Assembly (NCBI RefSeq): GCF_029543085.1
Contig: NZ_CP119967.1
Span: 3,560,501-3,624,500 of the forward strand
Direction of reading: 5' to 3'
Source of the DNA: Pseudomonas sp. A34-9
GTDB taxonomy: Bacteria > Pseudomonadota > Gammaproteobacteria > Pseudomonadales > Pseudomonadaceae
DNA length: 64,000 bases
Of the stretch, positions 8,829-63,977 are shown one piece after another; position 1 is the stretch's first letter; the number at the start of each line of letters is the position of its first letter. Under the pieces are notes generated by a model. That model made no database searches. It saw nothing but the letters and a program-made list of their open reading frames with translations, and was not told the origin of the DNA. The translations under genes were made by a program, and so were the position numbers.

Positions 8829-8916
8829 TAGGAGCTGCCGCAGGCTGCGATCTTTTGATCGTGTTTTTTGAAAATCAAATTCAGGATCAAAAGATCGCAG
8901 CCTTCGGCAGCTCCTA
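8829..8916. repeat. REP palindrome, family A
   Basis: An inverted repeat has arms TAGGAGCTGCCGCAGGCTGC / GCAGCCTTCGGCAGCTCCTA, each followed by GATCTTTTGATC-type sequence, around an AT-rich loop. It lies between the acetyltransferase start and the stop of the LysR gene upstream on the same strand, so it may act as a transcription barrier. Confidence 0.9.
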
Positions 8917-8923
8917 CAGGGGG

Positions 8924-9901
8924 TTATTCGAACCATTCGTGGCGTTCGTTGAAGGTGTGGTGGATCAGGTCAGTCAGGGTCTGCACTTCGGCCACATTCT
9001 GCGACTCGGCGTTGACCGCCAGCCACGCCTGCAATTGCATCGGTTCTTCAAACAGCCCCGGCAGCGCGATCAGGCCACGGTCGAACCGGCTCATATACGC
9101 CGGCAACAAACCAATGCACGCGCTGCAACGGATCATCTCCAGCATCAATTCATAAGACTGCATCTGCACCACCCCGGCCAAGCGTTGTTCGACCAACTCG
9201 TTCCACGGCCGGAAACTGTCGATCTGCCGATCGTGTTGCCATTGCACGAGCATGAAGTCGGCGAGGTCGTCGGGGGTGTCCGGGCGGGCGGTGACGCGGG
9301 AGTAGCGTTTGGCGATGTGTGGCAGGTAGTCGAGGCGTGCCAGCGCTTGCGGTTCGCTGGTGGCGAAGGTCGGGCCCGGGTGCGGGGTTTCGCCGTGGGC
9401 AAGCCAGAGGACGACGTCGGCGCTGACGGCGCGCAGCGACAGTTCGCTGTCGAGGGCGATGATTTCCAGACGTACGCTGGCGTTGCGCCGCAGCAGTGCA
9501 ATGAGGTCGCGGCCGAGGATGTCGTGCAGGATCGATTCGGCGACGGCGAGGCGAATCAGCGGTTGTTCGATCACCGGCAGTTTGCGCTCGTTGGCCAGCG
9601 CCACCAGTTTGGCCTGCAGTTGCTGGCCTTCGCGGGTCAGGCTCAAGGCGCTGCCCTGAAAGCTGAACAGCGTGTGTTGCAGTTCTTGCTCAAGCTGCGC
9701 CAGTTGTTTGCGCAACAAGGTCGAGCGCACATTGAGGCTGCGCGCGGCTTGCATGAAGCAGCCGCAGCGGGCGCTGACCAGGAAGTATTGCGCGACATCC
9801 GGGTCGACCTTCGCGGCTTGCGCCAGCCAGGGTTCGTGGTTGTCGATTGGCCAGCGGAATTCGCCATTGCCCTGTCGTCCTGCGGGTTCGGTGAATGACA
9901 T
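8924..9901 (-). CDS. LysR-family transcriptional regulator
   Basis: The protein has 325 residues. The chosen start MSFTEPAGRQG is preceded by GGGAG. The winged helix-turn-helix spans about residues 40-95, with FLVSARCGCFMQAARSLNVR and a LTREGQQL wing. The effector-binding region follows from about 110. It lies downstream of the PpiC-terminated operon on the same strand, separated by a REP. Its target is not evident and a link to that operon is only positional. Confidence 0.85.
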   Translation of the reverse strand: MSFTEPAGRQGNGEFRWPIDNHEPWLAQAAKVDPDVAQYFLVSARCGCFMQAARSLNVRSTLLRKQLAQLEQELQHTLFSFQGSALSLTREGQQLQAKLVALANERKLPVIEQPLIRLAVAESILHDILGRDLIALLRRNASVRLEIIALDSELSLRAVSADVVLWLAHGETPHPGPTFATSEPQALARLDYLPHIAKRYSRVTARPDTPDDLADFMLVQWQHDRQIDSFRPWNELVEQRLAGVVQMQSYELMLEMIRCSACIGLLPAYMSRFDRGLIALPGLFEEPMQLQAWLAVNAESQNVAEVQTLTDLIHHTFNERHEWFE

Positions 9902-9949
9902 CGATGACTCCCTGTCGATCTTTGTATTTATGAATTCCACCCATCCCCA

Positions 9950-29919: not shown

Positions 29920-30007
29920 GGAGGTGTGGCCGAGTGGTTTAAGGCAACGGTCTTGAAAACCGTCGACTGTAACAGGTCCATGAGTTCGAATCCCATCGCC
30001 TCCGCCA
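29920..30007 (+). tRNA. tRNA-Ser (anticodon TGA)
   Basis: This is an 88-nt tRNA with encoded CCA. The acceptor stem is GGAGGTG / CGCCTCC with one G-T pair. The anticodon loop CTTGAAA carries TGA, with anticodon stem ACGGT/ACCGT. There is an extended variable arm typical of tRNA-Ser and a T-loop GTTCGAATC. Its 3' portion is repeated at 43706 and 51974, so it is the chromosomal attachment site of the islands to its right. Confidence 0.95.
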
Positions 30008-30008
30008 T
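29948..30008 (+). repeat. att copy 1 (tRNA-Ser 3' end, attL of island 1)
   Basis: These 61 bases, starting CGGTCTTGAAAACCG and ending GCCTCCGCCAT, are identical to 43706-43766. Copy 1 diverges for about nine bases after this point and then regains the shared terminator sequence. Integration here keeps the tRNA gene intact. Confidence 0.92.
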
Positions 30009-30020
30009 ATTTGTACTGAC

Positions 30021-30044
30021 AAAGCCCTGATTATTCAGGGCTTT
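30021..30044 (+). terminator. Terminator of tRNA-Ser, also copied at the other att sites
   Basis: AAAGCCCTGA and TCAGGGCTTT form a ten-bp stem around TTAT, followed by a T-rich stretch. The same hairpin recurs at 43779-43802 and at about 52042-52066. Confidence 0.9.
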
Positions 30045-30207
30045 GTCGTTTCTGGGATCTGAGATTTTTGCGGCTTTTTCCGAAGCGTTACAAAACTTTT
30101 TGCAACGCGTTACAAAACTCCCCCCTCTCCGGCGTCCTGCCGATCGCTAAAAAACTCTTCATGTAACACGGTGCTACGCTGGTTCTTTGGCTACCAAGGA
30201 AACCAAA

Positions 30208-39925: not shown

Positions 39926-40873
39926 ATGCCCATAACCTACGGAAGCGTCTGCTCCGGCATCGAGGCGGCAACGCTTGCTTGGAAGCCGCTCGGCATGCGC
40001 GCCACTTGGTTCGCCGAGATCGAAGCGTTTCCCAGCGCAGTGCTGGCTCACCACTACCCGAACACTCCGAACCTCGGCGACATGACCAAACTCGGCGCCC
40101 AGGTGCTGGCCGGCGAGATCGCCGCGCCGGACATACTAGTCGGCGGGACACCGTGTCAGGCGTTCAGCGTGGCAGGCATGCGCGAAGGCCTCACCGACCC
40201 GCGCGGCACCCTCACCATCAAATACGTGGAGCTTGCAGATGCAGTTGACTATGTTCGAGCAGGTCAGCGAAAGCCGCCCTGCATCATCGTCTGGGAAAAC
40301 GTCCCCGGCGTCCTCAGCGACAAAGGCAACGCCTTCGGATGCTTTCTTGGCGCGCTTGCTGGGGAAAACTGCGAACTGCAGCCTTCAGGGAAAAAATGGC
40401 CGGACGCTGGTTGTGTGTATGGACCCAAAAGAACAATCGCGTGGCGGGTCCTGGACGCCCAATATTTCGGCCTGGCCCAACGACGCCACCGTGTGTTCGT
40501 TGTCGCAAGTGCTCGAGACGAATTCGATCCCACCGAGGTACTTTTTGAGCGCGAAGGCCCTCGCAGGGATCGGCCGCCGGGATGGCCGGAGAAGCTCGCA
40601 GTTCATCCTACTCTCACGGCACAAGGGGGAGGCTCTCTCGATGACAGAGAGGCATATGTATTGGAGCCCGAGGGTGTGCGCCGAACAAGCGTAATAGAAT
40701 GGGAGCGTTGTCAGGGGTTTCCAGATGATTACACACGGATACCATGGTATGGAAAGCCTTCAAGTGAATGCCCGGATGGACCCCGATACAGGGCGATCGG
40801 GAACAGCAAAGCAGTTCCGATCGCGGAATGGATTGGTATCCGAATCATGAGTTCGCTAAGTTACCCTTCATAG
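39926..40873 (+). CDS. DNA (cytosine-5) methyltransferase, phage type
   Basis: The protein has 315 residues. Motif I is YGSVCSGIEAATLAW. The catalytic motif IV is GGTPCQAFSVAG with Cys77. Motif VI is WENVPGVLS, motif VIII is QRRHRVFVV and motif X is RAIGNSKAVPIAEWIG. All core motifs are present, so activity is likely. No cognate endonuclease is adjacent, so it is an orphan methyltransferase, typical of phages protecting their DNA from host restriction. The target sequence cannot be deduced. Confidence 0.88.
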   Translation: MPITYGSVCSGIEAATLAWKPLGMRATWFAEIEAFPSAVLAHHYPNTPNLGDMTKLGAQVLAGEIAAPDILVGGTPCQAFSVAGMREGLTDPRGTLTIKYVELADAVDYVRAGQRKPPCIIVWENVPGVLSDKGNAFGCFLGALAGENCELQPSGKKWPDAGCVYGPKRTIAWRVLDAQYFGLAQRRHRVFVVASARDEFDPTEVLFEREGPRRDRPPGWPEKLAVHPTLTAQGGGSLDDREAYVLEPEGVRRTSVIEWERCQGFPDDYTRIPWYGKPSSECPDGPRYRAIGNSKAVPIAEWIGIRIMSSLSYPS

Positions 40874-42531: not shown

Positions 42532-43581
42532 ATGCGCCCCCGCAAGATCGAAACCCGCAATTTGCCTCCCAGGATGTATCAGTGGACACGAAAACGGAAG
42601 AGCGGAAAGGTGTGGATCGCCTATTACTACCTGGACATGACCGGCAAGGCTATCCCGCTGGGCAAGGATCTAGACTTGGCTAGGATCAAATGGGCGGACC
42701 TGGAGGCGAAGGAAAAGCCGCTCGATCTGCGCACCATGAAAGGCATCTTCGACCGATACATCCGCGACATAGTATCGAAGAAAGCGCCGCGCACGCAGAG
42801 AGACAACCTTTCGGAGATTAAGCAGCTCCGGCCGATGTTCGACGGCGCGCCCATCGACTCGATCACTCCTGCAACGATCGCCGGATACCGCGACGCGCGG
42901 ACGGCCAAGGTTCGAGCAAATCGGGAGATTGCGACACTATCGCACGTCTTCAACATCGCTCGGGAATGGGGACTGACGACCAAAGAAAATCCCTGCCAGG
43001 GCGTGCGAAAAAACAAAGAAACACCGAGGGACTATTACGCAAACGATGTGGTTTGGGATGCTGTTTACATGAAGGCAGCTCAAGAGCTGAAAGACGCGAT
43101 GGACTTGGCATATCTGACCGGGCAACGACCGGCAGATGTCTTGGTCATGAGGAAGGACGATGTCGAGGGAAATTACTTGGGTGTTCAGCAGAACAAGACA
43201 CACAAAAAGCTGCGTATCCAGATGACTGACGGTGATGAATCAAACAGCCTAGGCTTGCTGATCGGGAAAATGGCCGAGCGCAATGCTCAACACATTTGCA
43301 GCTATTTGATCGTGAGCTCGCGCGGCAAACGGATGACGGCGAAGATGCTTCGCGATCGATGGGACGACGCTAGAGAAAGAGCCAAGAAAGAGGCCAACGA
43401 AAAAGGCGATGTCCAGCTGGCGGAGAAAATCGGAGGCTTCCAGTTCAGAGACATCAGGCCGAAAGCGGCGTCGGAAATCCTCGACGTCGGCGATGCGAGC
43501 CTACTCTTGGGGCACACCAAAGGAGACATTACCGAGCGCGTCTATCGACGAATTGGCGCCATTGCCAAGCCATCGAAATAG
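42532..43581 (+). CDS. int: Tyrosine site-specific integrase
   Basis: The protein has 349 residues. An N-terminal arm-binding domain (about 1-65) and a core-binding domain (about 68-155) precede the catalytic domain. Visible active-site residues are Arg199 (TGQRPADVL), a Lys in NKTHKKLRI, Arg309 in FRDIRPKAAS (the usual His of HxxR is Arg/Asp-like here), His328 in LLGHTK and the nucleophile Tyr338 in ERVYRR. It lies 124 bases from att copy 2, as expected for the element's own integrase. Confidence 0.9.
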   Translation: MRPRKIETRNLPPRMYQWTRKRKSGKVWIAYYYLDMTGKAIPLGKDLDLARIKWADLEAKEKPLDLRTMKGIFDRYIRDIVSKKAPRTQRDNLSEIKQLRPMFDGAPIDSITPATIAGYRDARTAKVRANREIATLSHVFNIAREWGLTTKENPCQGVRKNKETPRDYYANDVVWDAVYMKAAQELKDAMDLAYLTGQRPADVLVMRKDDVEGNYLGVQQNKTHKKLRIQMTDGDESNSLGLLIGKMAERNAQHICSYLIVSSRGKRMTAKMLRDRWDDARERAKKEANEKGDVQLAEKIGGFQFRDIRPKAASEILDVGDASLLLGHTKGDITERVYRRIGAIAKPSK

Positions 43582-43705
43582 CTCCAAAAACCGTTACAAA
43601 ACTCAAAATCCGCCCCTTGTAGAATGCGGTCTGTAGAGGTGTCAAAAAATAAACGTATCGTAACGAAAAGCGGCTACAGACCCCGGTTTCATTGGCCTTG
43701 CATAT

Positions 43706-43813
43706 CGGTCTTGAAAACCGTCGACTGTAACAGGTCCATGAGTTCGAATCCCATCGCCTCCGCCATCTTATGTACGACAAAGCCCTGATTATTCAGGGCT
43801 TTGTCGTTTCTGG
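43706..43813 (+). repeat. att copy 2 (junction of islands 1 and 2)
   Basis: Bases 43706-43766 equal 29948-30008, the tRNA-Ser 3' end, and bases 43710-43813 equal 51974-52077 over 104 bases, including the tRNA terminator hairpin. It therefore serves as attR of island 1 and attL of island 2. Confidence 0.92.
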
Positions 43814-51660: not shown

Positions 51661-52203
51661 GCGTCTGCTTTTGGCCGGTAGCAGTCGCCTGCCGACGTCC
51701 GCTTTTGGCCGTGTCCTGCCTATTACGGCTGACCAGGTTGGTTGCAAATCTCACTTCAGATGAAAATCGCTTTCCATCAAGCACAGTCTCTCGATTGCAG
51801 CTTGAAGTCTAGGGCGATTTGAGCCTACCCAGAACGCCAAATAACCGGCCAAATTCGTTTCCGCAAATAAGTGTCCACCCCTTGATTTCAGAGGCCTCCA
51901 GAGCATTAATGAATACCGCCTAGCGGAAACGAATACAAGGTAAGGCATTGAAATATAAAGATTAATCTTCGGACTTGAAAACCGTCGACTGTAACAGGTC
52001 CATGAGTTCGAATCCCATCGCCTCCGCCATCTTATGTACGACAAAGCCCTGATTATTCAGGGCTTTGTCGTTTCTGGGGTTTGAGAAAATCTACGCCCCC
52101 ACTGACGTGTTCCATTACTTTTGTGGACGCGTTCCATAACGAGCTGTGTTTCAGCGACTTTCCCCGGGCGTTCTGCCGCCTGAAAAACCAATCCCCCCCC
52201 CTG
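51661..52203. other. Non-coding end of island 2 with short repeats and att copy 3
   Basis: Two inverse copies of CGGCCAAAAGCGGACG-type sequence lie at 51662-51677 and 51696-51711. About 250 bases without a supported gene follow, then att copy 3 at 51974-52077. The stretch from 52078 to 52203 contains short degraded-looking sequence and the end of the LLM monooxygenase gene. Confidence 0.6.
51974..52077 (+). repeat. att copy 3 (right end of island 2)
   Basis: The 104 bases are identical to 43710-43813. They include 57 bases of the tRNA-Ser 3' end and the downstream terminator hairpin. Five bases upstream (GGACTTGA instead of GGTCTTGA) the tRNA match is lost. This is the outer boundary of the tandem islands. 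Confidence 0.9.
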
Positions 52204-53556
52204 CTACGCTGGTTTCGTGCTTTCGAAGAAGCGATTTCCCACCCGTTGCAGCCCGAGGTTTTCCCGCAGGCTGCGGCCTTCGTAATGGGTGCGGTATAGC
52301 CCGCGCCGTTGCAATTCAGGCACCACCAGATCTACAAAATCATCGATGGCACCCGGGAGATGAGTGAACAGCACATTGAAGCCATCCGCTGCATATTCTT
52401 CATACCAGGTGGCCAGTTCGTCGACGATCTGCGCCGGTGTGCCGACCTGAACCTTATGCCCACTGGCTGACAGGCTGCGCAGCAGTTGCGCGACCGTCGG
52501 TCGCTCGCGACGGATCAGATCGAGCACCAGTTGCTGTCGGCTCTGGTGCCGTTGCGTCGGCGCGAGATGTTCCGGCAACGGCACCACGGCGTGCAATGGC
52601 AAGTCCGACAGATCAATGCCCAGGTCAAGCAGCCAGGACAAGCTCTTGAGCATCACTTCGGGGTCGAGTAGTTCTTGCAACTGCTGGTACTTTTCTTCGG
52701 CCTCGTTGAGGGTTCGGCCGACAGTTGGCGCAATGCCCGGAAAGATCTTCAACTGCCCGACGTGTCGCCCATAGTGCGGCAAACGCTCCTTGAGTCCGGC
52801 GTAAAAAGCTTTGCCCTCCTCCAGGGTTTGCTGAGCGGTGAACACCAGTTCAGCGCTGCGCGCCGCCAGCTCTCGACCCGGGCCAGACGAGCCGGCCTGA
52901 GCGATCAGCGGCCAACCTTGCAGGGGGCGCGGCGCGTTCAATGGACCGCGAACCTGGAAGTGTTGGCCGTGATGCTCAAGCACGTGCATTTTCTCGGTAT
53001 CGAGCCAGGTGCCTGTGACCTTGTCGCGCACAAACGCATCATCGGCCCAGCTGTCCCAGAGCCCTGTTACCACGTCGAAAAACTCTTCGGCCCGGGCATA
53101 ACGATCAGCGTGCGCCAAGGGCTGGGCATGATTGAAATTTTCGCCGCCAATCAAACCGGTTACCAGGTTCCACCCGGCACGACCACCGCTCAGGTGATCG
53201 AGTGAAGCGAACTTGCGCGCGACGTTATAGGGCTCGTTGTACGACGTATTGACGGTGGCGATCAGGCCGATGTGTTCGGTCAACACCGCTAGCGCCGGCA
53301 GTAGCGTCAACGGGTCCCAGCGCAGGCTGTAAGACGTGCGGCTGAGCACCCGTGGATCGAGGTTGCCCACGGCAACATTGTCATTGAGAAACAAGGCATC
53401 GAAGCAGCCTCGTTCCAGCGTTTGCGCGTAGTGCCGATAGCGCTGAAAATTCAGCGAAGCATCGGCATCCGCCTGTGGGTGACGCCAACTGCCACCGTGC
53501 GCCCCGGAGCCGGACAGAAAGGCCCCAAGGCGTATTTGCCCCGTACGTTCAGCCAT
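52204..53556 (-). CDS. LLM-class flavin-dependent monooxygenase (NtaA/SnaA-like)
   Basis: The protein has 450 residues from MAERTGQIRLGAFLSGSGAH. The bacterial-luciferase-type barrel carries LFLNDNVAVG, SYSLRWDPLTLLPALAVLTE, IGLIATVNTSYNEPYNVARK and SGGRAGWNLVTG. This matches FMNH2-dependent monooxygenases of the nitrilotriacetate/pristinamycin-synthase group, which use reduced flavin from a separate reductase. The start overlaps the MFS gene stop by eight bases. In this operon it could N- or C-oxidise a cyclodipeptide, or serve sulfur/nitrogen scavenging with the upstream genes. The sequence does not decide. Confidence 0.88.
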   Translation of the reverse strand: MAERTGQIRLGAFLSGSGAHGGSWRHPQADADASLNFQRYRHYAQTLERGCFDALFLNDNVAVGNLDPRVLSRTSYSLRWDPLTLLPALAVLTEHIGLIATVNTSYNEPYNVARKFASLDHLSGGRAGWNLVTGLIGGENFNHAQPLAHADRYARAEEFFDVVTGLWDSWADDAFVRDKVTGTWLDTEKMHVLEHHGQHFQVRGPLNAPRPLQGWPLIAQAGSSGPGRELAARSAELVFTAQQTLEEGKAFYAGLKERLPHYGRHVGQLKIFPGIAPTVGRTLNEAEEKYQQLQELLDPEVMLKSLSWLLDLGIDLSDLPLHAVVPLPEHLAPTQRHQSRQQLVLDLIRRERPTVAQLLRSLSASGHKVQVGTPAQIVDELATWYEEYAADGFNVLFTHLPGAIDDFVDLVVPELQRRGLYRTHYEGRSLRENLGLQRVGNRFFESTKPA

Positions 53557-54976
53557 GACCCGGCCCTTCTCCGGCGAGTGCCTGCGCCGTTTTTGCCCTG
53601 CGCAGCAACCACGCCACCGAGGCCCAGACACTGAGGCTGGCCACCGCCAGAAACACCATGACCGCACGATAGCCATTGAGGAACGCGCCCGGCACATCAT
53701 CCAGCGGCAGTGCGGAAAAATGATGATAAATCCCGACGCCAACCGCCAACCCGAGACCGCCACCTACGTTGTGCAACGTCATCAGCGACCCCATCGCTAC
53801 CGAACCGACCTGCTGCGGCACCGAAGAAATCCCCAACACCGTCGACGGCCCGAGAATGCTCGCCCAGCCCAGGCCCATGACCACGAACGCGGCCAGGACA
53901 TAGGCCAGGGACGTCTGGCGATCAAAGCCAGCCTGCAACAACGCCGACACCACAAACAGCAGTAACCCGGTCTTGATCAGCAACGCCGGCCCCTTGCGAT
54001 CCACCAACCGCCCCACAAGCGGTGACAATACCGCGACCCCAAGTGTGGTCGGCAACAGCAACAGACCGCTGGCCTGAACGTTTTCGCCGCGAATCAATGC
54101 CAGGTAAAGCGGCATGACAAAAAACGCCACGCAGTAAAACAGCGCCAGGCCGAAACTGGCGGTCACCGCGGCCACGAAGCGCCGGTTGGCGAATAACCGC
54201 AAGTCGATGATCGGTGCCGCGACACGTTTTTCGACCTCAATGAACGCCCAGAGCGCCAGCACCGCCAGACTGATCAAGCCCAGCGTAACCGGCGAACGCC
54301 AACCCCACGCTGCGCCTTGCACGATCACCAGCACCAGGCTTGGCAACCCGACCAACAACAAAATCGCCCCCAGCCAATCAAGCCGGGTGCCTGTCTGCTC
54401 AGCACGGGACTCATCGACGCTGACGCTACAAATCGCCAGGCTGAGCAGCACCAACGGCACGTTAATCAGGAAAATCCATTGCCAGCCGAACGCACTGGTA
54501 ATCACGCCGCCCAATACTGGCCCGATGGCCAGTCCGATGCCATTGACGCCGAACAGCACACCGAATGCCTTGCCTTGTTCGGCGCTGTCGAACGTGCTGG
54601 AAACAATGGCGCCGGACGCGGTGTAGAGCACCGCGCACGCCAGGCCTTGGACGATTCGCGCGGCGATCAACTGGTCGATGTCGCCGACCAGACCGGCCGC
54701 CAACGAAGCCAGGCCAAACAGGCTCAGACCGATGAACAGCACGCGTTTGCGCCCATGCACATCCGCCAGCCGCCCGACCAGCACCATAAAACTCGACAGC
54801 GCCAGAATGAAACCATTGATAACCCACTGCAAACGGTCGACGTCCGCCCCCAGATCCTGCTGCAACGCCGGCAGTGCGGTGTTGACGATGGTGAAATCGA
54901 CGCAGCCCAGAAAACTGGCAATGCTCACGCCGAGCAATGCCCACCATTTGCGTTGCTGTTGCGCAAAAACGCTCAT
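53549..54976 (-). CDS. MFS multidrug-type exporter (DHA2/14-TMS)
   Basis: The protein has 475 residues from MSVFAQQQRKWWALLG. AAGGAG six bases upstream rejects a longer frame. There are about 14 transmembrane segments. DHA2 hallmarks are FTIVNTALPALQQDLGADVD, the loop 2-3 motif VGRLADVHGRKRVL and motif C-like LGGVITSAFGWQWIFLINVP. It is encoded 78 bases after the cyclodipeptide synthase. Such pumps usually export the product of the same cluster and give self-resistance. Confidence 0.9.
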   Translation of the reverse strand: MSVFAQQQRKWWALLGVSIASFLGCVDFTIVNTALPALQQDLGADVDRLQWVINGFILALSSFMVLVGRLADVHGRKRVLFIGLSLFGLASLAAGLVGDIDQLIAARIVQGLACAVLYTASGAIVSSTFDSAEQGKAFGVLFGVNGIGLAIGPVLGGVITSAFGWQWIFLINVPLVLLSLAICSVSVDESRAEQTGTRLDWLGAILLLVGLPSLVLVIVQGAAWGWRSPVTLGLISLAVLALWAFIEVEKRVAAPIIDLRLFANRRFVAAVTASFGLALFYCVAFFVMPLYLALIRGENVQASGLLLLPTTLGVAVLSPLVGRLVDRKGPALLIKTGLLLFVVSALLQAGFDRQTSLAYVLAAFVVMGLGWASILGPSTVLGISSVPQQVGSVAMGSLMTLHNVGGGLGLAVGVGIYHHFSALPLDDVPGAFLNGYRAVMVFLAVASLSVWASVAWLLRRAKTAQALAGEGPGHG

Positions 54977-55054
54977 GGAAACTCCTTGTTCAATTGAATA
55001 AAAACAGCGGTACGGTGGTGCATAACGGCAGGAGCTCACGCTGCGCCGTTTTCT

Positions 55055-55804
55055 TCAAATCGCGATCGCGCCACTCGACCAGTTCGGGTGAATCGCCCCA
55101 GGCAGCGTGAAGGGAATCGGGATCCCGCGTTTCTTGAATTTCAACGGCAACCAGCGCACGCGGTCCGGGCTGTAAGGCTCGATCAGCAGGTCACGGCTGG
55201 TGGCCATCGCGGCGGTCATCTGCTGCGGATACAGCACGTAGTCGTAACCCTCGGCGGCCCATAGCGGCAGGATGATCGGGATTTCTTCGAGGATGTATTC
55301 GCGGCACTGGTTGGCGGCACGCGTGATGTCGGCGTGTTCGTCACGCAATCGCAAACGCTCGGTAAACACCGCGATGGTGCTTTCGATCGCTTCGCGCAAC
55401 TCTTGACGCTCTTGGTAGATCACATTGAGTTGCTGGCGCAGTTCGGCGTATTGGTCGCTTGCCAGTTCCTGGTTCCAGCGGGTGATGTGATAGGGCACGC
55501 GCAAACCGTCGAGAATCTGCTGATTGCGTGCCAGCCAGGCGTCGCCGTCGCGGATGGATGCCGACAGCGCTTCGCCGGGGGATTTGCCGTGCTTGTTATG
55601 GCGCTGCAAGGTGTCGGCGACCACGACTTTGACGTGGCTGAAGCCCGACTGATTGATCAAGTGGATGGTCGAACGCAGCTTTTGGTCTTCGTGATACTCC
55701 TGGCCAACACTGACCGCCAACACCACCCGCTTACCTTCAAATTCGTGCTCTTCGCCACCCTTGTTGAAATAGGCCTTGAGGTTGATTTCCTGTGTGTTGC
55801 TCAT
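55055..55804 (-). CDS. tRNA-dependent cyclodipeptide synthase, XYP type
   Basis: The protein has 249 residues. The catalytic Ser is Ser32 in VVLAVSVGQEYHED, aligned to the AlbC GISAGN segment, with Gln35 at the place of the NYH-type Asn. The second hallmark Y-x3-E is present as Tyr170-Glu174 in REYILEEIPIILP. YVLYPQQM supplies Tyr192-Pro193, the YP of the XYP subfamily (AlbC has YH). These enzymes take two aminoacyl-tRNAs and form a diketopiperazine. The two amino acids cannot be predicted. The gene follows the 2OG-oxygenase stop by three bases. Assignment is by motif alignment from memory. Confidence 0.8.
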   Translation of the reverse strand: MSNTQEINLKAYFNKGGEEHEFEGKRVVLAVSVGQEYHEDQKLRSTIHLINQSGFSHVKVVVADTLQRHNKHGKSPGEALSASIRDGDAWLARNQQILDGLRVPYHITRWNQELASDQYAELRQQLNVIYQERQELREAIESTIAVFTERLRLRDEHADITRAANQCREYILEEIPIILPLWAAEGYDYVLYPQQMTAAMATSRDLLIEPYSPDRVRWLPLKFKKRGIPIPFTLPGAIHPNWSSGAIAI

Positions 55805-55807
55805 GAG

Positions 55808-56584
55808 TTAGCTCCAGTAGGCCAAAGGCTGGTGTTCGCCGTAAAAACCGATAAAGACGCCGAGTGTCACGCGGGTGCTGCTCGCTGAAGGGCGCACCGC
55901 ATGGATCAACCGCGGGTTGAGCAGGATCAGGTCGCCAGGCTCGGGCTTGATCACAAAGTCCGGTGGCGGTAGCAAATGCCGATCGATGCCGTAGGCGCGT
56001 TCGCCACGCAGGCGCTGGTATTCTTCCTCGTCCGGCTCGATACCCCAGATCTCGAGTTCGCCACCGTCCTCGGGGATTTCCAGATAGATGTTGGTCGACA
56101 ACTGCGTGAGCAATTTCGGGTGGTGCCCTTGAGGGGCATTGCGTTCCAGATTGTCAGTGTGTGGTGTCAGGTCGACGCCGCTGCCCTGGAAGCGGGCGAT
56201 GCCGACGAAGCATTTTTGCCCATCCACTTGCAACAGGTGCGCACCGTGGGGCCAGACTTCATCGAGCAGCAAACGCAGCTCGTCGATCGGTGAAGCCAGT
56301 GGCCGGAACAAGTTGCGAATCCGGCGGATGTTGGCGTGGGCCTGAGCGTGATAGTCGGCACGGCTCTGCTCATCCTGGATTTCGATGTAAGCCTTGCCGA
56401 TCCGAACGAATTCCTGCTGCTCGGTAAAGGCGCTGCGCAATTCAGGGCGGAATAAATGATCGCGTGCGACCTGCAAGGTGTCCGGTGGACAAAAGCCTTT
56501 TAGTTGCACGCCATAAGAGCGTTTTTCCACGACATCAAGAATATGCCTTGCTTCAAGTTGGTCGGCAGTAATGACTGTAAACAT
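55808..56584 (-). CDS. 2-oxoglutarate/Fe(II)-dependent oxygenase
   Basis: The protein has 258 residues. GAGGAA six bases upstream supports the ATG. The iron triad is His142, Asp144 (TPHTDN) and His228 (RLIHAVR), and Arg238 (SSTRVTLG) binds 2-oxoglutarate. The double-stranded beta-helix fold lies at about 120-250. It probably hydroxylates or desaturates the diketopiperazine made by the adjacent synthase. In bicyclomycin biosynthesis, 2OG oxygenases act in this way on a CDPS product, but several are used there. Here only one is present. Confidence 0.85.
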   Translation of the reverse strand: MFTVITADQLEARHILDVVEKRSYGVQLKGFCPPDTLQVARDHLFRPELRSAFTEQQEFVRIGKAYIEIQDEQSRADYHAQAHANIRRIRNLFRPLASPIDELRLLLDEVWPHGAHLLQVDGQKCFVGIARFQGSGVDLTPHTDNLERNAPQGHHPKLLTQLSTNIYLEIPEDGGELEIWGIEPDEEEYQRLRGERAYGIDRHLLPPPDFVIKPEPGDLILLNPRLIHAVRPSASSTRVTLGVFIGFYGEHQPLAYWS

Positions 56585-56855
56585 TCAAGCTTCCTCATTC
56601 CCTGGAAGTAACGACGGGACAGACCGGGCAAATCTTTCAAATTGTTTCAAGGCAACCTTAGGTAATTGCCCCAGGCTTGTGAAATATCGTTTATCTCTAA
56701 CTACCCAACTAAAAAACGTATCAAAAATCAGGCAAATAGAGCCCTGCACCGATCCTTGACGATTCGAGCTAAAGATTATTAAAAATACTGATAGTTAAAC
56801 TAAGTAACGCACATTATTCGAATGCTCTAATTGATCACCCTCATTCAAACAGTCA
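56585..56855. promoter_or_regulatory. Probable promoter region of the cyclodipeptide operon
   Basis: This is a 271-base AT-rich gap between the SBP stop and the 2OG-oxygenase start on the same strand. It is the only large gap between the transport block and the synthase block, so a separate promoter is likely. I cannot assign -35/-10 elements with confidence. Confidence 0.4.
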
Positions 56856-57902
56856 TCAATTTGTCACTTCGTTAAATTGCTCATCAAAGTAAGCCGGCGC
56901 ATTAAATGAGTTCTGAATAATGCCTTCCTCTCGATAAAGATCGGCGGTGTGCTGCACATCTTCAACGACTGCTGGCGCAATCGGAATACGATGCGGTACG
57001 GCGAAGCGATTGGAGCGTTCGTGGATCTCCACCGGCAAACCGCTGTAGCCCGCCTGGATTTTCGAGAACGCCTCCTGATGGTGGTTAGCCCAGGCATAGG
57101 CGCGATCGAGCCGTTTGAGCAGGTCACGAATTTGCAGGGATTTGTCACGGATGGCGTTGTCGTTGGCGACCAACAACATGTGCCCGGCAAACAGCCCTTC
57201 GCCACTGACCAGCACCCGCGTGCCGCCTTCCATTTGCACCATGCTGGTGTAAGGATCCCAGGTCGACCAGGCGTCTGCCTGACCGTTGGCCAGCAAGCTG
57301 CGGGACTCGCCGGGTTGCAAAAAAATGAACTGCGCATCACGGCCGTGCAGCCCCGCCGAACGCAGCGCCGCCAGTGCCATGAAATGCCCGATGGAGCCAC
57401 GGGTGGTGGTAATGCGCTGGCCCTTCAGGCTCGCGGCGTCCGTCAGCGGCGAGTGCTGATTGACCACAATCGCCACCGCGGTTTGCGTCACGTTGACCTT
57501 GATCACCCCGACCGTTTTGATCGGCGCTCCGGCCGCCGCCGCAAACACGAACGGCGCGTCCCCAAGGCTGCCGAAATCCACTGCGCCAGCCGCCAATGCT
57601 TCGGCGGTGGGCGCGGCAGCGGCGAACGAGGCGAACTCGATCGGGTAAGGCAGATTCTCCAGTTCACCGGCCGCTTGCAGCAAGATTTTCAGCGACTGCT
57701 TTTGGCTGGAAACACGCAAAGTGTCATCGGCCACGACCGGGGTGCTCAAGCCCGAAATCATGAGCACCAGCATCGACAGCCCGCCGAGTTTTGCAACCGC
57801 GTTACGGGCCTTATCTCCAGCAAGCCGGCACCCACGGATTTGGGTGGCGCCGCCAATATCGTCGGTGAAACGTTCGTTGCCAGCGGATGTGTGTTGGGTC
57901 AT
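56856..57902 (-). CDS. SsuA/NMT1-like ABC substrate-binding protein
   Basis: The protein has 348 residues. An internal signal-like hydrophobic segment ends STPVVADDTLRVSSQKQSL (about 40-60), so the first 20-30 residues may be mis-started. No strong Shine-Dalgarno is seen at this ATG. The ligand domain has GAVDFGSLGDAPFVFAAAAG, TTTRGSIGHFMALAALRSAG and GQADAWSTWDPYTSM, as in aliphatic-sulfonate/taurine-type binding proteins. No ABC permease or ATPase genes are adjacent. It starts three bases after the TonB receptor stop. Ligand is unknown. Confidence 0.8.
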   Translation of the reverse strand: MTQHTSAGNERFTDDIGGATQIRGCRLAGDKARNAVAKLGGLSMLVLMISGLSTPVVADDTLRVSSQKQSLKILLQAAGELENLPYPIEFASFAAAAPTAEALAAGAVDFGSLGDAPFVFAAAAGAPIKTVGVIKVNVTQTAVAIVVNQHSPLTDAASLKGQRITTTRGSIGHFMALAALRSAGLHGRDAQFIFLQPGESRSLLANGQADAWSTWDPYTSMVQMEGGTRVLVSGEGLFAGHMLLVANDNAIRDKSLQIRDLLKRLDRAYAWANHHQEAFSKIQAGYSGLPVEIHERSNRFAVPHRIPIAPAVVEDVQHTADLYREEGIIQNSFNAPAYFDEQFNEVTN

Positions 57903-57905
57903 CGG

Positions 57906-60374
57906 TCAGAACGCCAGGCTGACGCGGCTGTAGTAATACCCGCCGCCCAGACCGTACGGCGAGAACATCCCGTATTCGTAGGTGCCGGCCCAAGCCTTGA
58001 GGCCGATCTTGTCCGGGTATTCATCAAACAGGTTGTTGGCGCCCAACGCCACGGTGAGGTTTTTGGTGACGTCGTAGGCCACGTCGATATCGGTGATCCA
58101 CTTGGCGCTGTAAGTACGATCGTTGGCCGGGATGTTCGAGCCTTCGGTGTACTCGCCGAACCGCGTCAGTTGCAGGTTGGTGGTCCAGTCGCCGACCTTG
58201 TAGTTGGTCGACAGAATCCACTTGTCTTTGGGCGTCGACTTGGTCAGGTCGATCTGTTGCTGCCGGTCGAACAACAGGTAGCTGGAACCTAACCGCGCCA
58301 GGGCTGCCGGGGTGTCGGCCAGGTCACGGATCGTGGTTTTGTTGTGGTTGTAGGCGATGCTCCATTTCGCCGTGCCGTACTCACCAAACGATTGGCTGTA
58401 ATCGGCCACCAGGTCCACACCTTTGGTGCGGGTGTCGGCGGCGTTGGTGTAATACTGGCCGGCGAGGTTCGGCGCCAGTCCGTTTTCGACGAGGATCTGC
58501 GAGACGGCGGCACCTTGCAGCAAACCGGTCTGCAGGATGCGTTTGTCGATGTCGATCAGGTAAAAGTCAGCGGTAAAACGCAGGCGCTCGGCAGGTTCCG
58601 CCGTAAAGCCCAGGCTGTAGTTGCGCGAGGTTTCCGGTTCCAGGTCTTTGGCGCCCAGGGCGATCGCTTCGGCTGAATCCGGACGCATTTGCTTGGTGCG
58701 CACTGAACTGGTGGTGCCGTTGGCGCCGAACTGGGTCACGGTGCTGGTGGTGGAGAAGACACTTTGCGCCAGCGACGGTGCGCGGAAGCCATTGCTGACC
58801 GCGGCCCGCACTGCGTAACCCGGCAGAAACTCGTAACGCGTGGTCAGCTTGCCGCTGGTGGTGTCGCCCACGCCAAGGTTGTACTTTTCATAGCGCCCGG
58901 CCGCACCGACGTACCAGTTGGGCGTGATGTTCAGACCGAAGTCCAGATAGGCCGCTTCGCTGTGACGCTGCAAGTCATAGGCGTCATCCGGTGTTGTGCC
59001 GTTCACCGAAAACAGGCCCGGGTCCGGACGCACGCCGGCGAATCGCCCGACTGCCGGCACATAACTGCCATAGTTGTAGGCGTTCGGTTCGCCCTCCTCC
59101 AGCGCGTACTTCTCCCATCGATATTCGACGCCGAACGAGGTCTCCAGCGGGCTGCTCCAGCCGATATCCAGCGCTTGGGTGAAGTCGAGATTGTTAGTCC
59201 ACTGATCGAAAATCAGATTGCCCAGGTGGAAGTCGTGCTGGCCGTAAGGGCCGTTGGAAATGTTCAGGTTGTTGTCGGTGTCGAGCACCGCGCGATCCTT
59301 GCCGTAGGTACTCGACAGATCCCAATCCCAGTTGCCCAGCGCGCCCTTGGCACCACCGGCCACCTGAAAGTCCACCTCGTGGATTTCCCGTCGCGCCTGC
59401 CCGCCATTGGGGTACGGCGCATCCGGCACACCGTTGAGGCTGGTAATGTCAGTGGGTTTGCGGTGGCCCAGGTCCTTGTTGCTGGTGCGGTAGCTCAAGG
59501 TCGAAAACGAATACAGCTTCAGATCGTCCTGCAACGGCAACTCGGCGTTATAGGCGACGCTGGTGGTGCGATCGCGGCCGAGCCCGTACTCGGTGCCCCA
59601 GCCTTGGCGATTGCTTTCACGCGAGTCGGGTGTGCCGTTGGGCTGATTGAAATACAACTGGCCGGTGGCAGCGCTGGAGCGCTCGTAAGGCTCTTGCAGT
59701 TTGCCGTCCCACGACAGGTTGAAAAAGCCGCCGTTTTCGCCCAGTGCCGAGCCCCAGTTGAACGCCTCATGGCCGGTGGTGCCATCGCCGTCGTAGTACT
59801 GGCCGACGCTGGTGTCGGACGTCAGGCCTTCGGCATTGCGCTTGAGGATGATGTTGATCACCCCGGCAATGGCATCGGAGCCGTACTGCGCCGCCGCGCC
59901 GTCACGCAGCACTTCAATGCGCTCGATGGACGCCGTGGGAATCAGGTCCAGGTCGACCGGCACCGAGGCGTTGCCGACGCGGGCGCCGTTGTTGATCAGC
60001 GCCGAGTTGTGACGACGCTTGCCGTTGATCAACACCAGCACCTGATCGCCGCCAAGGCCACGCATGCTCACCCCGCGCACCAGGAACGCAGTACCGCCGC
60101 CGTTGATGGTCGGTACGTTGAACGATGGCAGCAGGCGCCCGAGCATTTCTTTCAGACCATTCTGACCGATGGTGCGCAGTTGTTCGCTGTCGATCACATC
60201 GATCGGCGCCGGGCTGTCGGTGACGGTACGCTGCTGACTGCCGCGGACCCCGGTGACCACCACGGTGCCCAGGGTTTCATCGGCGGCGAACAGTACGGAG
60301 GGCACCGCCATGCCGAGCAGGCCGAAGCTCAGGGGCGCAGCACCGAACAGGGTTTTATGCAAAATTGAACGCAT
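57906..60374 (-). CDS. TonB-dependent outer membrane receptor
   Basis: The protein has 822 residues from MRSILHKTLFGAAPLSFG. AAGGA about eight bases upstream is adequate. A signal peptide ends VLFAA. The plug domain (about 45-165) has TVVVTGVRGSQQRTV, LIPTASIERIEVLRDGAAAQ and YGSDAIAGVINIILKR. The barrel ends in the C-terminal Phe (RVSLAF). There is no N-terminal signalling domain. It imports a ligand energised by TonB. It is clustered with RidA, an oxidase and a dipeptidase, and the substrate may be a peptide-like or sulfonated compound. Confidence 0.9.
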   Translation of the reverse strand: MRSILHKTLFGAAPLSFGLLGMAVPSVLFAADETLGTVVVTGVRGSQQRTVTDSPAPIDVIDSEQLRTIGQNGLKEMLGRLLPSFNVPTINGGGTAFLVRGVSMRGLGGDQVLVLINGKRRHNSALINNGARVGNASVPVDLDLIPTASIERIEVLRDGAAAQYGSDAIAGVINIILKRNAEGLTSDTSVGQYYDGDGTTGHEAFNWGSALGENGGFFNLSWDGKLQEPYERSSAATGQLYFNQPNGTPDSRESNRQGWGTEYGLGRDRTTSVAYNAELPLQDDLKLYSFSTLSYRTSNKDLGHRKPTDITSLNGVPDAPYPNGGQARREIHEVDFQVAGGAKGALGNWDWDLSSTYGKDRAVLDTDNNLNISNGPYGQHDFHLGNLIFDQWTNNLDFTQALDIGWSSPLETSFGVEYRWEKYALEEGEPNAYNYGSYVPAVGRFAGVRPDPGLFSVNGTTPDDAYDLQRHSEAAYLDFGLNITPNWYVGAAGRYEKYNLGVGDTTSGKLTTRYEFLPGYAVRAAVSNGFRAPSLAQSVFSTTSTVTQFGANGTTSSVRTKQMRPDSAEAIALGAKDLEPETSRNYSLGFTAEPAERLRFTADFYLIDIDKRILQTGLLQGAAVSQILVENGLAPNLAGQYYTNAADTRTKGVDLVADYSQSFGEYGTAKWSIAYNHNKTTIRDLADTPAALARLGSSYLLFDRQQQIDLTKSTPKDKWILSTNYKVGDWTTNLQLTRFGEYTEGSNIPANDRTYSAKWITDIDVAYDVTKNLTVALGANNLFDEYPDKIGLKAWAGTYEYGMFSPYGLGGGYYYSRVSLAF

Positions 60375-60399
60375 GACTAAGATCCTTTTCTGACGGCGC

Positions 60400-60897
60400 T
60401 CATTGCGACCTAGCGGCAACGGTTTCGACTTCGATCAAGGCACCGGGCAACACCAGTCCGGCCACTTGCACGGTGGTTCGCGCGGGTTTCAGCGGTTGTT
60501 GTTCGGTACCGAAAAACTCGCGGAAGGCCACTTGCAGCCCGTCGAAATCCAGCTTGCCGCCCAACGCCGGATCGCCCACCAGATAGATCCGCAGTTGCAC
60601 CACGTCGGCCAGTTTCAACCCCTGGCTCGCCAGAATGCTCTCGACCTTGCGCAGCACCACGCGGGTCTGCGCTTCGGTATTGCCGACGGCACGCACCTGA
60701 TCTTTCGGGGCTTTGGGATCGACCGGATCGGGGAGCAGGCCCGAGAGATACGTGACCTCGGTATTCGCGGCGAGCGTCACCGATTGCAGGATCGGTGAGT
60801 TGGGGTACGTGGACGGCACCCGCGAAATCGAAGCGGCCAGGGTGTTGCTGGCCGCAAAGAGGATCCCCATCCCCAACAAAGTTTTTTTCAAAGACAT
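60400..60897 (-). CDS. Secreted RidA/YjgF-family protein
   Basis: The protein has 165 residues from MSLKKTLLGMGILFAASNTL. Unlike cytosolic RidA it has a signal peptide (cleavage near TLAAS). The fold shows VTYLSGLLPDPVD, AQTRVVLRKVESILASQG, ADVVQLRIYLVGD and PARTTVQVAGLVLPGALIEV. RidA hydrolyses reactive enamines/imines released by amino-acid oxidation. Its gene follows the exported amine-oxidase gene, which makes such imines, so a periplasmic detoxifying role is likely. Confidence 0.85.
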   Translation of the reverse strand: MSLKKTLLGMGILFAASNTLAASISRVPSTYPNSPILQSVTLAANTEVTYLSGLLPDPVDPKAPKDQVRAVGNTEAQTRVVLRKVESILASQGLKLADVVQLRIYLVGDPALGGKLDFDGLQVAFREFFGTEQQPLKPARTTVQVAGLVLPGALIEVETVAARSQ

Positions 60898-60988
60898 GCA
60901 AAGACACTCCAAGGTTGTTTAATGCCAGCCTCGGAGGTCCGCTACCTGGCAAATCGTGTGTGGCTGTTTGAATGAAAGCGCGGCTTTT

Positions 60989-62566
60989 TCAGGCCGTTTG
61001 CTTGATAGGCGAGCCTTGCGCCCGCTCGAAAAGATTGCGCACTACCCGCCGCGCCGCACCGGCCGCCGCTTCCTGCCAGATCCCCACGCCGCTGTGCGCC
61101 AGGCCGTCACTGGTCAGGTACACCCGACCCTGCGGTTGGTTGAGCAAGCTGTAATCGGGATCGGCCACTTCGTGATTGATCCACGGACCAAGGTTGTACG
61201 GAATTTTCGCCCAGGCAATGGCCAAGGGTTTGCGCAGTTCATGGCTGTGGCCGGGGTGCAGCAATTCAACGGCCTGACGGGAAATCGCTATCTGCTGATC
61301 AAGGCTTTTCTCGCCGAACTTGCGCGCCGTTTCGCCATTGTTATAAGCCGCCACCAACACCCCTTGCGCCTGGTTGAAACCACCGCTGGGGTACCACAGG
61401 CCCGAAGCTTCCTGATTGATAAATGACAGCCCGCCGTAAATCTGATAATCGCTTTCCCAGAAGCGTCGCGACTGCCAGGCGACTTTGTTCGCGTAGCCGA
61501 ATTGCACGGCGGCGATGGCTTGGCGCACCGGTGCCGCGAGGTTGCTGTCGATCTTCGCCAGCAGTGGCAGCGGCAACGCGCTGATCACGTAATCAGCACG
61601 AATTTTTTGTTCGTGGCCACTGCGTCGGTCCAGATAAGCGACCTCGACGAAGTCCGGTTGATTAGTGATCGAGCGCACTTCGGCGTTCAGGCGTAGCGCT
61701 GCTTTCAGGTGCCGCGCGAAGGCCTTGGGAATGCGGTCCATACCGCCCACCGGCTGAAACATGGTCGGCGAAAATTCCGGGTATTCATCAATCATCAACG
61801 CGGTGGTCAACGCCGGGTTGAGCAACGTCTGCAACGGCAGCGGATCTTTTTTCTGTGCGAGTTGATCACCGGCGCCCGGCCATACCTTGTACCCGGAGCG
61901 AGCAGAACCGACGTACTCGAGTTTGTCCGAGAGATCGCCCCAGGTCTTGAGGAAACTCAGCAGGTTGCTGCGGTCTTCGAGGCTGAGTTCCTGATCCAGC
62001 GCGTGGCGATTGACCGCTTTTGCCAGCAGCTCGGAGAAGTGTCCACGGCTGTCGTTCACGGCTTGGCGAATCTGGATCGCCGGTTGATTCAGGTCGGGTC
62101 GCACCAGTGCGTTGCGGCTGGTGTTGACCAGCACTTCCAGCTCCACCCCGAGCTCGCGGCAATAGCCGAGCATCAACTGATGATGGCTAGGCAGGCGACC
62201 GGGGCCGGCGTTGAGGTAGAAGCCGTTGTCGAAGTCCGCGACCTGCACGCTGCCGTCGGTGTACTCGACACGATCACCCCCGCGTACCGTCCAGTTGCGT
62301 CCGCCAACACGATCACGGGCCTCCAGCAGCGTGACGTTGAAACCGGCCTTTTTCAGCTCATAGGCGCTGACCAGGCCGCCGATGCCGGCACCAATCACCA
62401 CCACGCTGGCACCTTGACCAACACGGGCGGTGGGCAACGCGGCGTAGTTCTCCGCAGCGGCCTGCGCCGTGTCGGTCACACCGAGCATGCCCATCACCGC
62501 GGAGGCCGCCTGAAGACCGCCGACGGCGGCGACACGGGCGATCAATTGTCTTCTGGTCAATGGCAT
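60989..62566 (-). CDS. Tat-exported flavin amine/L-amino-acid oxidase
   Basis: The protein has 525 residues. The twin-arginine motif TRRQLIARVAAVGG is at residues 4-17. The dinucleotide site SVVVIGAGIGGLVSAYELKK is followed by the ADP-ribose acidic residue in LLEARDRVGGRNW. The substrate-binding region includes FSPTMFQPVGGMDRIPKAF, and the C-terminal FAD motif reads RVYLTSDGLAHSGVGIWQEA. It would oxidise a free amino acid or amine to an imine, with release of peroxide, in the periplasm. The RidA gene lies downstream. Confidence 0.85.
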   Translation of the reverse strand: MPLTRRQLIARVAAVGGLQAASAVMGMLGVTDTAQAAAENYAALPTARVGQGASVVVIGAGIGGLVSAYELKKAGFNVTLLEARDRVGGRNWTVRGGDRVEYTDGSVQVADFDNGFYLNAGPGRLPSHHQLMLGYCRELGVELEVLVNTSRNALVRPDLNQPAIQIRQAVNDSRGHFSELLAKAVNRHALDQELSLEDRSNLLSFLKTWGDLSDKLEYVGSARSGYKVWPGAGDQLAQKKDPLPLQTLLNPALTTALMIDEYPEFSPTMFQPVGGMDRIPKAFARHLKAALRLNAEVRSITNQPDFVEVAYLDRRSGHEQKIRADYVISALPLPLLAKIDSNLAAPVRQAIAAVQFGYANKVAWQSRRFWESDYQIYGGLSFINQEASGLWYPSGGFNQAQGVLVAAYNNGETARKFGEKSLDQQIAISRQAVELLHPGHSHELRKPLAIAWAKIPYNLGPWINHEVADPDYSLLNQPQGRVYLTSDGLAHSGVGIWQEAAAGAARRVVRNLFERAQGSPIKQTA

Positions 62567-62777: not shown

Positions 62778-63977
62778 TCAATGTCTGCGCTGCGCCTCGC
62801 TCAGCACCCGCAGCAAATTCCCGCCCCAGATCTTTGCCACATCCCTTTCGTTGTAACCCGCCGCCAGCAAGCGCTCGGTAATTCGCGGCAACTGCGACAC
62901 ATCGCTCAAGCCTTGCACCCCGCCGCCGCCGTCCCAGTCAGCACCGATCCCGACATGGTCGGCGCCGACGACTTGCAGAATGTGCAGCAGGTGCTTGATG
63001 AAATCATCAAGGTTTGCTTGCGGTTGCGGGTAGCGGTTTTCGACCTCGTGGATACGCGCTGCCAGGTCCGCCACCTCGGCCGGGCTCAGGCTCGCCGCCA
63101 GTCGAAACTCGCGATACAGCGGGCCCAGCGCCTTGTCGCGCTCGGGGTTGGGCTCGTGGTTGATCAAGTCACCGGGAAAGCTGTTGACCTGCACCACACC
63201 GCCCTTCGCCGCCAACCGGCGCAAGCGCTGGTCGTCGAGGTTGCGTGGGTGCGCCGTGATCGCCCGACTGCTGCTGTGCGAAGCAATGATCGGGGCACTG
63301 GATAGCTCCAGCACTTGGTCAAACACCTGGTCCGAGGCGTGCGAGACATCGAGCAAAATCCCCTGCCGGTTGGCCTCCACCACCAGGGCTCGACCGGCCG
63401 GGCTCAAGCCGTGCCATTGCGGCAACGCGGTGGCTGAATCGGCGAAATCGTTGTTGGCCGCATGCACCAGCCCAAGCATGCGCAAACCCAGTCGGTAATA
63501 GGTCTGCAATCGTTGCAGATCAGCCGCCAGCGGCTCGGCGTTTTCCATGCTGATAAACACCACCCGCTGCTGGCGCGCGACGATGGCCGGTACGTCTTCG
63601 GCGCGCAACGCCAAGGCAAAATCCTTGGGGTGCGCCGCTACCATGTCGCGAATGCGGGTGATCACCGCCAGGCCATGCTCGCTGGCCAGTGTCCGGCCTT
63701 CGGCGGTGAGTGGACCCTGCGGGGTGAATATCGCCCAGAAGCCACCGTCCAGCCCGCCCTCCTTCATGCGCGGCAAGTCCACTTGGGACAGGTCGGTGTC
63801 GAAGCTGTGCCGCTGGGTGATGTCCCAATCGGGACGCGCCAGTTGCATCGGAGTGTCGAGGTGGCTATCGAGGACGGTGAGACGCTGGTGAAGTTGCGTA
63901 ACGGTTTCCCCGGCGTGGGTGAAAGCGCTGATCAGGCACAACAGCACTGCGCAACAGCGCGCAAAAGAAGTGAGCAT
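62778..63977 (-). CDS. Membrane dipeptidase (peptidase M19), exported
   Basis: The protein has 399 residues from MLTSFARCCAVLLC. GGGAGG near the ATG and a signal peptide ending THAGE support the start. The zinc site motif is DSHLDTP, followed by DLPRMKEGGLDGGFWAIF, a SHASDQVFDQVL segment, IIASHSSSRAI and the terminal HVGIGADWDGGGGVQG. The family hydrolyses dipeptides, including D-residue or unusual ones, in the periplasm. It could release amino acids for the adjacent oxidase. It lies at the right edge of the window, and genes further upstream are not seen. Confidence 0.9.
   Translation of the reverse strand: MLTSFARCCAVLLCLISAFTHAGETVTQLHQRLTVLDSHLDTPMQLARPDWDITQRHSFDTDLSQVDLPRMKEGGLDGGFWAIFTPQGPLTAEGRTLASEHGLAVITRIRDMVAAHPKDFALALRAEDVPAIVARQQRVVFISMENAEPLAADLQRLQTYYRLGLRMLGLVHAANNDFADSATALPQWHGLSPAGRALVVEANRQGILLDVSHASDQVFDQVLELSSAPIIASHSSSRAITAHPRNLDDQRLRRLAAKGGVVQVNSFPGDLINHEPNPERDKALGPLYREFRLAASLSPAEVADLAARIHEVENRYPQPQANLDDFIKHLLHILQVVGADHVGIGADWDGGGGVQGLSDVSQLPRITERLLAAGYNERDVAKIWGGNLLRVLSEAQRRH

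Follow-up and report, generated by a model that had tools for sequence, protein, structure and literature searches.

An orphan diketopiperazine cluster of Pseudomonas with a predicted cyclo(Leu-Glu) synthase, set among uptake and amino-acid-oxidising genes

Our analysis concerns a cyclodipeptide synthase (CDPS) gene and its neighbors in Pseudomonas sp. A34-9, which lie in a 64,000-nucleotide stretch of its genome (the window; NZ_CP119967.1, positions 3,560,501 to 3,624,500). We find that this is a genuine orphan diketopiperazine cluster, having a core of a known kind and unusual neighbors that serve uptake and amino-acid oxidation, and that its compound, as judged from sequence, is probably a hydroxylated leucine-glutamate ring. 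The first-pass annotation had described a four-gene operon on the minus strand (52204-56584) encoding an Fe(II)/2-oxoglutarate (2OG) oxygenase, a CDPS of the XYP subfamily, a major facilitator superfamily (MFS) exporter, and a luciferase-like flavin monooxygenase (LLM), a combination it did not know to be described. All four open reading frames were found exactly there, free of internal stops and spaced by 3, 78, and -8 bases, and the grouping of an exporter with one 2OG oxygenase (hereafter OXY) and a CDPS of the XYP type was borne out. Two other elements of that description had to be given up. The four genes are not the unit, since the conserved cluster is larger, with genes for an L-amino-acid oxidase (AMO), a RidA protein (RID), a TonB-dependent receptor (TBDR), and a solute-binding protein (SBP) adjoining, while the LLM lies outside the invariant core. 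Nor is the gene set without precedent, as the OXY-CDPS-MFS trio was found in 56 of 64 loci and CDPS-2OG neighborhoods were already published in 2010.

We lean toward the view that the cluster makes a secreted, hydroxylated cyclo(Leu-Glu) whose biosynthesis is coupled to the uptake and amino-acid-oxidising genes beside it. The CDPS would join Leu-tRNA and Glu-tRNA to form cyclo(L-Leu-L-Glu), OXY would hydroxylate this ring, most likely at the glutamyl beta carbon, and the DHA2-type MFS pump would export the hydroxylated product. Within this Pseudomonas lineage, the trio is tied to a TonB receptor, an SsuA-type SBP, and (in most members examined) an ABC importer, as well as to an L-amino-acid oxidase, a RidA protein, and an M19 dipeptidase, all with putative export signals. 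Judging from this link, dedicated genes would probably take the secreted compound back up, process it outside the cytoplasm, or do both, with the LLM serving as an optional part of the processing rather than as a core tailoring step. A further extension of this model is a closed cycle in which hydroxylated cyclo(Leu-Glu) would be made, secreted, recaptured through a TonB receptor and an ABC importer of its own, and dismantled, whole or in fragments, outside the cytoplasm by the M19 dipeptidase, AMO, and RidA, its role being that of a signal, a metallophore, or a shuttle for scavenging; in that complete form we regard it as unlikely.

The synthase, its oxygenase, and the predicted product

The CDPS gene (55055-55804, minus strand) encodes 249 residues that score above the curated cut-offs of both PF16715 (30.4 vs. 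27 bits) and TIGR04539 (48.6 vs. 45 bits), which upholds the original family assignment. Its nearest solved relatives by phmmer are two Nocardia brasiliensis entries (9i5m, E 3e-57, and 5mlq, E 3.2e-57; residues 17-227), followed by 5ocd (E 1.3e-31). To survey the family, we used 64 loci drawn with two conserved peptide patterns, for which ortholog counts refer to ≥60% identity. Ser32, Tyr170, Glu174, Tyr192, and Pro193 were unchanged in 17 of 17 aligned homologs and in all 64 rows of the locus alignment, which comprises the window plus 63 of the 64 loci (L064 was omitted, its frame being broken from about residue 165). The previously assigned numbering (Ser32, Tyr170-x3-Glu174, Tyr192-Pro193) is therefore right, as these catalytic columns are invariant. 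In L042/L064 (Pseudomonas sp. GV071, G228), the CDPS is split into two frames, either broken or mis-sequenced, and the flanking cluster is present. Position X of the XYP signature (AlbC N40) corresponds to Gln35, as determined by counting from the catalytic Ser rather than by alignment to AlbC.

The product prediction depends upon a single pocket position. Among Glu-using XYP CDPSs, the second P1 residue tracks with the product, with Leu, Ala, and Phe corresponding to cyclo(Ala-Glu), cyclo(Leu-Glu), and cyclo(Gly-Glu), respectively (PMC5816076), and substitution of L32 with Ala or Gly in the Nocardia enzyme yielded cyclo(Leu-Glu) at a cost in cyclo(Ala-Glu) (PMC13062777). In our alignment, Nocardia Leu32 is matched by Ala30 of the window CDPS. 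Because Ala30 occupies the P1 residue that separates cyclo(Ala-Glu) enzymes from cyclo(Leu-Glu) enzymes, the main product is predicted to be cyclo(L-Leu-L-Glu). The equivalent residue is Ala in 20 of the 64 loci (all Pseudomonas by record title) and Leu in 41, while three distant loci have neither; we refer to the first two groups as Ala30 and Leu-type loci. Other substrate-facing positions are shared across both groups: Gln67, Asn70, and Arg150, which match Nocardia residues contacting the first substrate or its tail (Gln69, Asn72, and Arg152), do not vary in any of the 64 rows, and 62 of these rows carry Ser or Thr at position 197 (Thr197 here; Ser199 of the second-substrate cleft in Nocardia). 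Our comparison with the cyclo(Leu-Glu) (cLE) specificity group was made at these single residues rather than with full P1/P2 consensus motifs. That group of XYP CDPSs (two of 19 characterized in 2017; PMC5816076) likewise has Ala at the decisive P1 residue; the excerpted account of it makes no mention of cLE tailoring (PMC5816076), whereas the window cluster includes OXY.

Profile searches underestimate this family. In a single-genome search, PF16715 recovered the window CDPS at E 1.2e-6, yet it was unlisted in the genus-wide run, which lists 15 of 398 genomes (assigned to Pseudomonas by contigs shared with named records) vs. 21 by protein search. Because the family sits near the PF16715 detection limit, Pfam-based counts are too low. 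In the same genus-wide run, family members scored 24.5-33.9 bits, unlike the one CDPS of a different kind on its list (L131, genome G386), which scored 214 bits.

OXY (55808-56584, minus strand, 258 residues) was the only protein modeled, and it shows both the sequence and the fold of the WelO5 family. H142, D144, H228, and R238 are unchanged in 32 of 32 aligned sequences, which agrees with the iron-site assignment (H142/D144/H228) made in the first pass. WelO5 halogenases have HxG at the iron site, whereas OXY retains HxD (D144 in 32/32), and for this reason we expect it to be a hydroxylase, here a predicted diketopiperazine hydroxylase. One relative is labeled as a WelO5-family halogenase, and we considered the same role for OXY; the intact HxD in all 32 sequences rules this out. 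A P. protegens homolog that is 91% identical to OXY stands for 173 sequences. The third member of the trio, the MFS exporter (53549-54976, minus strand, 475 residues), is of the DHA2/EmrB type (TIGR00711, 236.7 bits; cut-off 230.2).

Distribution of the trio and its setting in Pseudomonas

In 56 of 64 loci, the CDPS gene is immediately flanked by OXY in front and MFS behind, and MFS follows the CDPS in 61 of 64. The hosts of the trio include Streptomyces, Nocardia, Gordonia, Williamsia, Mycolicibacterium, Xenorhabdus, Burkholderia, Paraburkholderia, and Pseudomonas; from its spread over these genera, the trio is an old unit spanning Actinomycetota and Pseudomonadota and is of a known, widespread type. 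In five loci from Photorhabdus the MFS is present but a window-type OXY is not, and three distant loci have neither. One of the five Photorhabdus loci was profiled (L068), and next to the same CDPS and MFS it encodes a different 2OG enzyme (DIOX_N + 2OG-FeII_Oxy, at 8906-9943), which lies upstream of the CDPS and is itself preceded by an SBP_bac_5 binding protein. We also built midpoint-rooted FastTree phylogenies from a hand-picked set of 50 loci (50 CDPS, 46 OXY, and 49 MFS sequences). The first run contained 47 OXY sequences, whereas the rerun trimmed five rows at a stop and dropped L072 from the OXY set, and the groupings were the same. The MFS tree places the Leu-type and Ala30 Pseudomonas sequences together (support 0.68), the CDPS tree joins the Ala30 clade to a Nocardia group (0.84), and the OXY tree joins the Leu-type Pseudomonas sequences to Burkholderia and Xenorhabdus (0.97). 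This is suggestive of an exchange of the synthase/oxygenase pair beneath a conserved transporter; the supports are mixed, so we do not claim it.

The Ala30 loci are distinguished by their neighbors. AMO, RID, and TBDR are each present in 19 of 20 (all three are missing from L053, where the contig ends), as is SBP1, the SBP nearest to the trio (missing from L059). Among the 41 Leu-type loci, AMO and RID orthologs occur in none, and TBDR and SBP1 occur in three, all of them Pseudomonas. Across the 398 genomes, AMO (≥77% identity) and the Ala30 CDPS (≥70%) mark an identical set of 18, and the next AMO genes, at 62% identity, belong to genomes lacking a CDPS match in the protein search. That search matched 22 genomes altogether, 18 with the Ala30 type, three with the Leu type (41% identity), and one with a chance-like hit of 20 bits.

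In the window, all of these genes share the minus strand. SBP1 (56856-57902) is an SsuA-family periplasmic protein (TIGR01728, 198 bits, cut-off 163.5; 2x26, E 1.6e-35) and is followed upstream by TBDR (57906-60419; PF00593 and PF07715), whose listed start is TTG with an ATG 15 codons further in. Next are RID (60400-60912; PF01042, 55 bits), AMO (60989-62566; PF01593; 2jae, E 2.7e-80), and an M19 membrane dipeptidase (62778-63977; PF01244, 339.5 bits; 2rag, E 2.5e-104). As read by eye, the N-termini of RID and the dipeptidase are signal-peptide-like and that of AMO is Tat-like. Further upstream on the same strand, the M19 gene begins a series that is mostly outside of the window, comprising a second SBP (SBP2), a class II aldolase (ALD), a 2-hydroxyacid dehydrogenase (HADH), and an acyl-CoA-dehydrogenase-like protein (ACDH), together with a LysR regulator and the ATPase and permease of an ABC system. 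The order LYSR, SSUC, SSUB, ACDH, HADH, ALD, SBP2, M19, AMO was shared by all but one (L123) of the 11 Ala30 relatives retrieved for this stretch. The 271-base gap between SBP1 and OXY (56585-56855) may, from its spacing, hold a separate promoter for OXY-CDPS-MFS-LLM; a simple scan of this gap found no sigma-70 consensus.

On its other side, the operon starts just past the last of three direct repeats (29948-30056, 43705-43813, and 51960-52080) that are 96-99% alike and consist of the 3’ end of a tRNA-Ser(TGA) gene plus the following hairpin. The intact tRNA-Ser(TGA) is located at 29920-30007, and an integrase-like open reading frame (by eye) is found at 42532-43581, just ahead of the second repeat. 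The three repeats look like the attachment sites of two tandem islands, the first of which also includes a DNA cytosine methyltransferase-like open reading frame (by eye) at 39926-40873. The GC fractions of the two island-like segments are 0.50 and 0.54, compared with 0.60 for the operon. None of the 14 relatives’ loci checked contains a tRNA gene.

Alternative accounts of the neighboring genes

The last gene of the operon raises the question of how much tailoring occurs. The LLM (52204-53556, minus strand, 450 residues) is a member of the NtaA/DmoA family (TIGR03860, 535.3 bits; cut-off 279.7), and its nearest solved relatives are 7e36, YtnJ, and MoxC, then DszA, with EDTA monooxygenase and RutA also among the matches. 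The latter two enzymes act at C-N or amide groups. Together with the 8-base overlap between the LLM start and the end of the MFS gene and the retention of the LLM in 16 of 20 Ala30 loci, this would fit a self-contained four-gene operon in which both OXY and the LLM tailor the diketopiperazine. However, four of the 20 Ala30 loci lack an LLM ortholog even though their other core genes are present, and in whole-genome searches of these four lineages the best LLM matches reached 55, 37, 36 (plus one partial match at 47), and 53% identity, with none exceeding 55%. In addition, LLM orthologs occur in none of the 41 Leu-type loci, and an LLM is present in seven of eight related cassettes that are devoid of the trio (see below). 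We therefore consider the four-gene account quite unlikely: as the ortholog is missing from four of 20 otherwise similar loci, a role for the LLM as a tailoring monooxygenase is doubtful, and on the same grounds we reject it as a core enzyme. It is best described as accessory and looks dispensable. One of the LLM-less loci, L056, has a short downstream match (49% identity over 16% of the LLM) that is perhaps a remnant.

A separate concern is whether the trio and its neighbors act upon the same molecule at all. We sampled eight loci out of the 90 genomes having a more distant AMO, and AMO, RID, and TBDR were present in all eight, the LLM in seven, and SBP1, SBP2, ACDH, and HADH (≥49%) in four, while OXY, the CDPS, and this MFS were found in none. 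In G286, which is among these genomes, a Leu-type trio is encoded at another site. Such cassettes, along with the SsuA-type SBP1, the YtnJ/DszA-like LLM, and the 271-base gap separating SBP1 from OXY, are compatible with two unlinked functions, in which a diketopiperazine trio was inserted into a pre-existing cassette for scavenging organosulfur or amino compounds. On the other hand, the close version of the cassette (AMO ≥77%) was never seen without the CDPS among the 398 genomes, and Leu-type Pseudomonas loci retain TBDR, SBP, and MFS orthologs next to the trio. Thus, we view two unlinked functions as possible, if somewhat unlikely.

Several observations nonetheless temper our preferred account of a secreted, hydroxylated cyclo(Leu-Glu) coupled to its neighbors. 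Foremost is the existence of AMO-RID-TBDR cassettes without the trio (AMO 54-62%, TBDR 46-49%, and LLM 39-45% identical), and it is mainly because this related cassette exists apart from diketopiperazine synthesis that we are cautious about a shared molecule; the cassette may have its own substrate. The match between AMO and the CDPS over 18 genomes partly reflects shared ancestry, L059 is without SBP1 and matches the TonB receptor only in part, and the stretch fetched for P. viridiflava (G119) did not show the upstream neighbors of AMO. As for the chemistry, the likeness of OXY to 3w20, which presumably prefers branched-chain amino acids, would also fit hydroxylation of the Leu half. The Ala30 CDPS lies on a long branch of the tree, so the pocket rules may shift, and many cLE enzymes make cyclo(Phe-Glu) (cFE) as well (PMC13062777).

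The TonB receptors also invite a third explanation, in which the hydroxylated diketopiperazine would chelate a metal, be exported by the MFS, and be recovered by the receptor. TonB receptors adjoin the trio in both Pseudomonas and Burkholderia (L102), a Xenorhabdus locus (L099) has a TonB receptor and TonB upstream, N. brasiliensis (L088) has FecCD/SIP genes downstream, and a Burkholderia CDPS with a single oxygenase has been proposed as a siderophore system (PMC5767969). We scanned for regulatory sites using Fur, IdeR, and Zur consensus sequences, with mononucleotide shuffles as background (two Fur-like sites in 723,378 bases and one IdeR-like site in 625,416 bases). Fur-like sites (≥14/19) were found in only two of 20 Ala30 loci, near the shuffled-sequence rate (in the SBP1-OXY gap of L046 and inside the L054 CDPS), and in none of five Leu-type Pseudomonas stretches from four genomes. 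IdeR-like sites were present in four of 28 actinobacterial loci, none of them upstream of OXY: the L088 site is 56 bases before the first FecCD gene, those of L089 and L090 are at the matching place, and that of L104 is away from the trio. The Zur scan of the same 28 loci, made without a set threshold, gave a best match of 11/15. Iron control of the cluster is thus not supported by these scans, and the SBP is of the SsuA type rather than a siderophore type; overall, a metallophore seems very unlikely.

Relation to known systems and significance

Our search of the open-licence literature found no characterized product for the trio. Parts of the arrangement have been reported previously: CDPS genes beside 2OG oxygenases in P. 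fluorescens and Burkholderia in 2010 (PMC2922099), TonB receptors and ABC and MFS transporters near CDPS genes in 2014 (PMC4159871), and a CDPS accompanied by one oxygenase and by siderophore pumps in Burkholderia in 2018 (PMC5767969). An orphan-product CDPS cluster was listed in 2022 for P. protegens CHA0 and Pf-5, both of them biocontrol strains (PMC9059233).

The closest characterized enzyme is Nbra-CDPS of Nocardia brasiliensis (5mlq/9i5m), a solved and assayed cyclo(Ala-Glu) synthase that has the same catalytic residues and the same Q67, N70, and R150 (window numbering). Its loci (L088/L089) likewise have OXY upstream and MFS downstream; they differ from the window in having no match to AMO, RID, SBP1, or the LLM, and the synthase itself differs at P1, with Leu32 and cyclo(Ala-Glu) in Nocardia and Ala30 and a predicted cyclo(Leu-Glu) here. 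The Burkholderia operon of PMC5767969 resembles the window in combining a single oxygenase with a CDPS; in our own Burkholderia locus, L102, the trio lies between two TonB receptors, and AMO, RID, SBP1, and the LLM are without match. The bicyclomycin cluster of Streptomyces and P. aeruginosa also shares a CDPS, 2OG oxygenase(s), and an MFS, except that it has five 2OG enzymes plus a P450 and a cyclo(Ile-Leu) core, and the excerpt of PMC5930311 describing it mentions no TonB receptor, oxidase, or RidA, all of which the window cluster has. The 16 genes of the window cluster that were profiled include a single 2OG enzyme and lack a P450, unlike the bicyclomycin set.

The predicted product is specific enough to be tested directly, and a single assay could reveal what a large family makes. 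If the uptake part of the model is true, this would be an unusual diketopiperazine with dedicated recovery genes.

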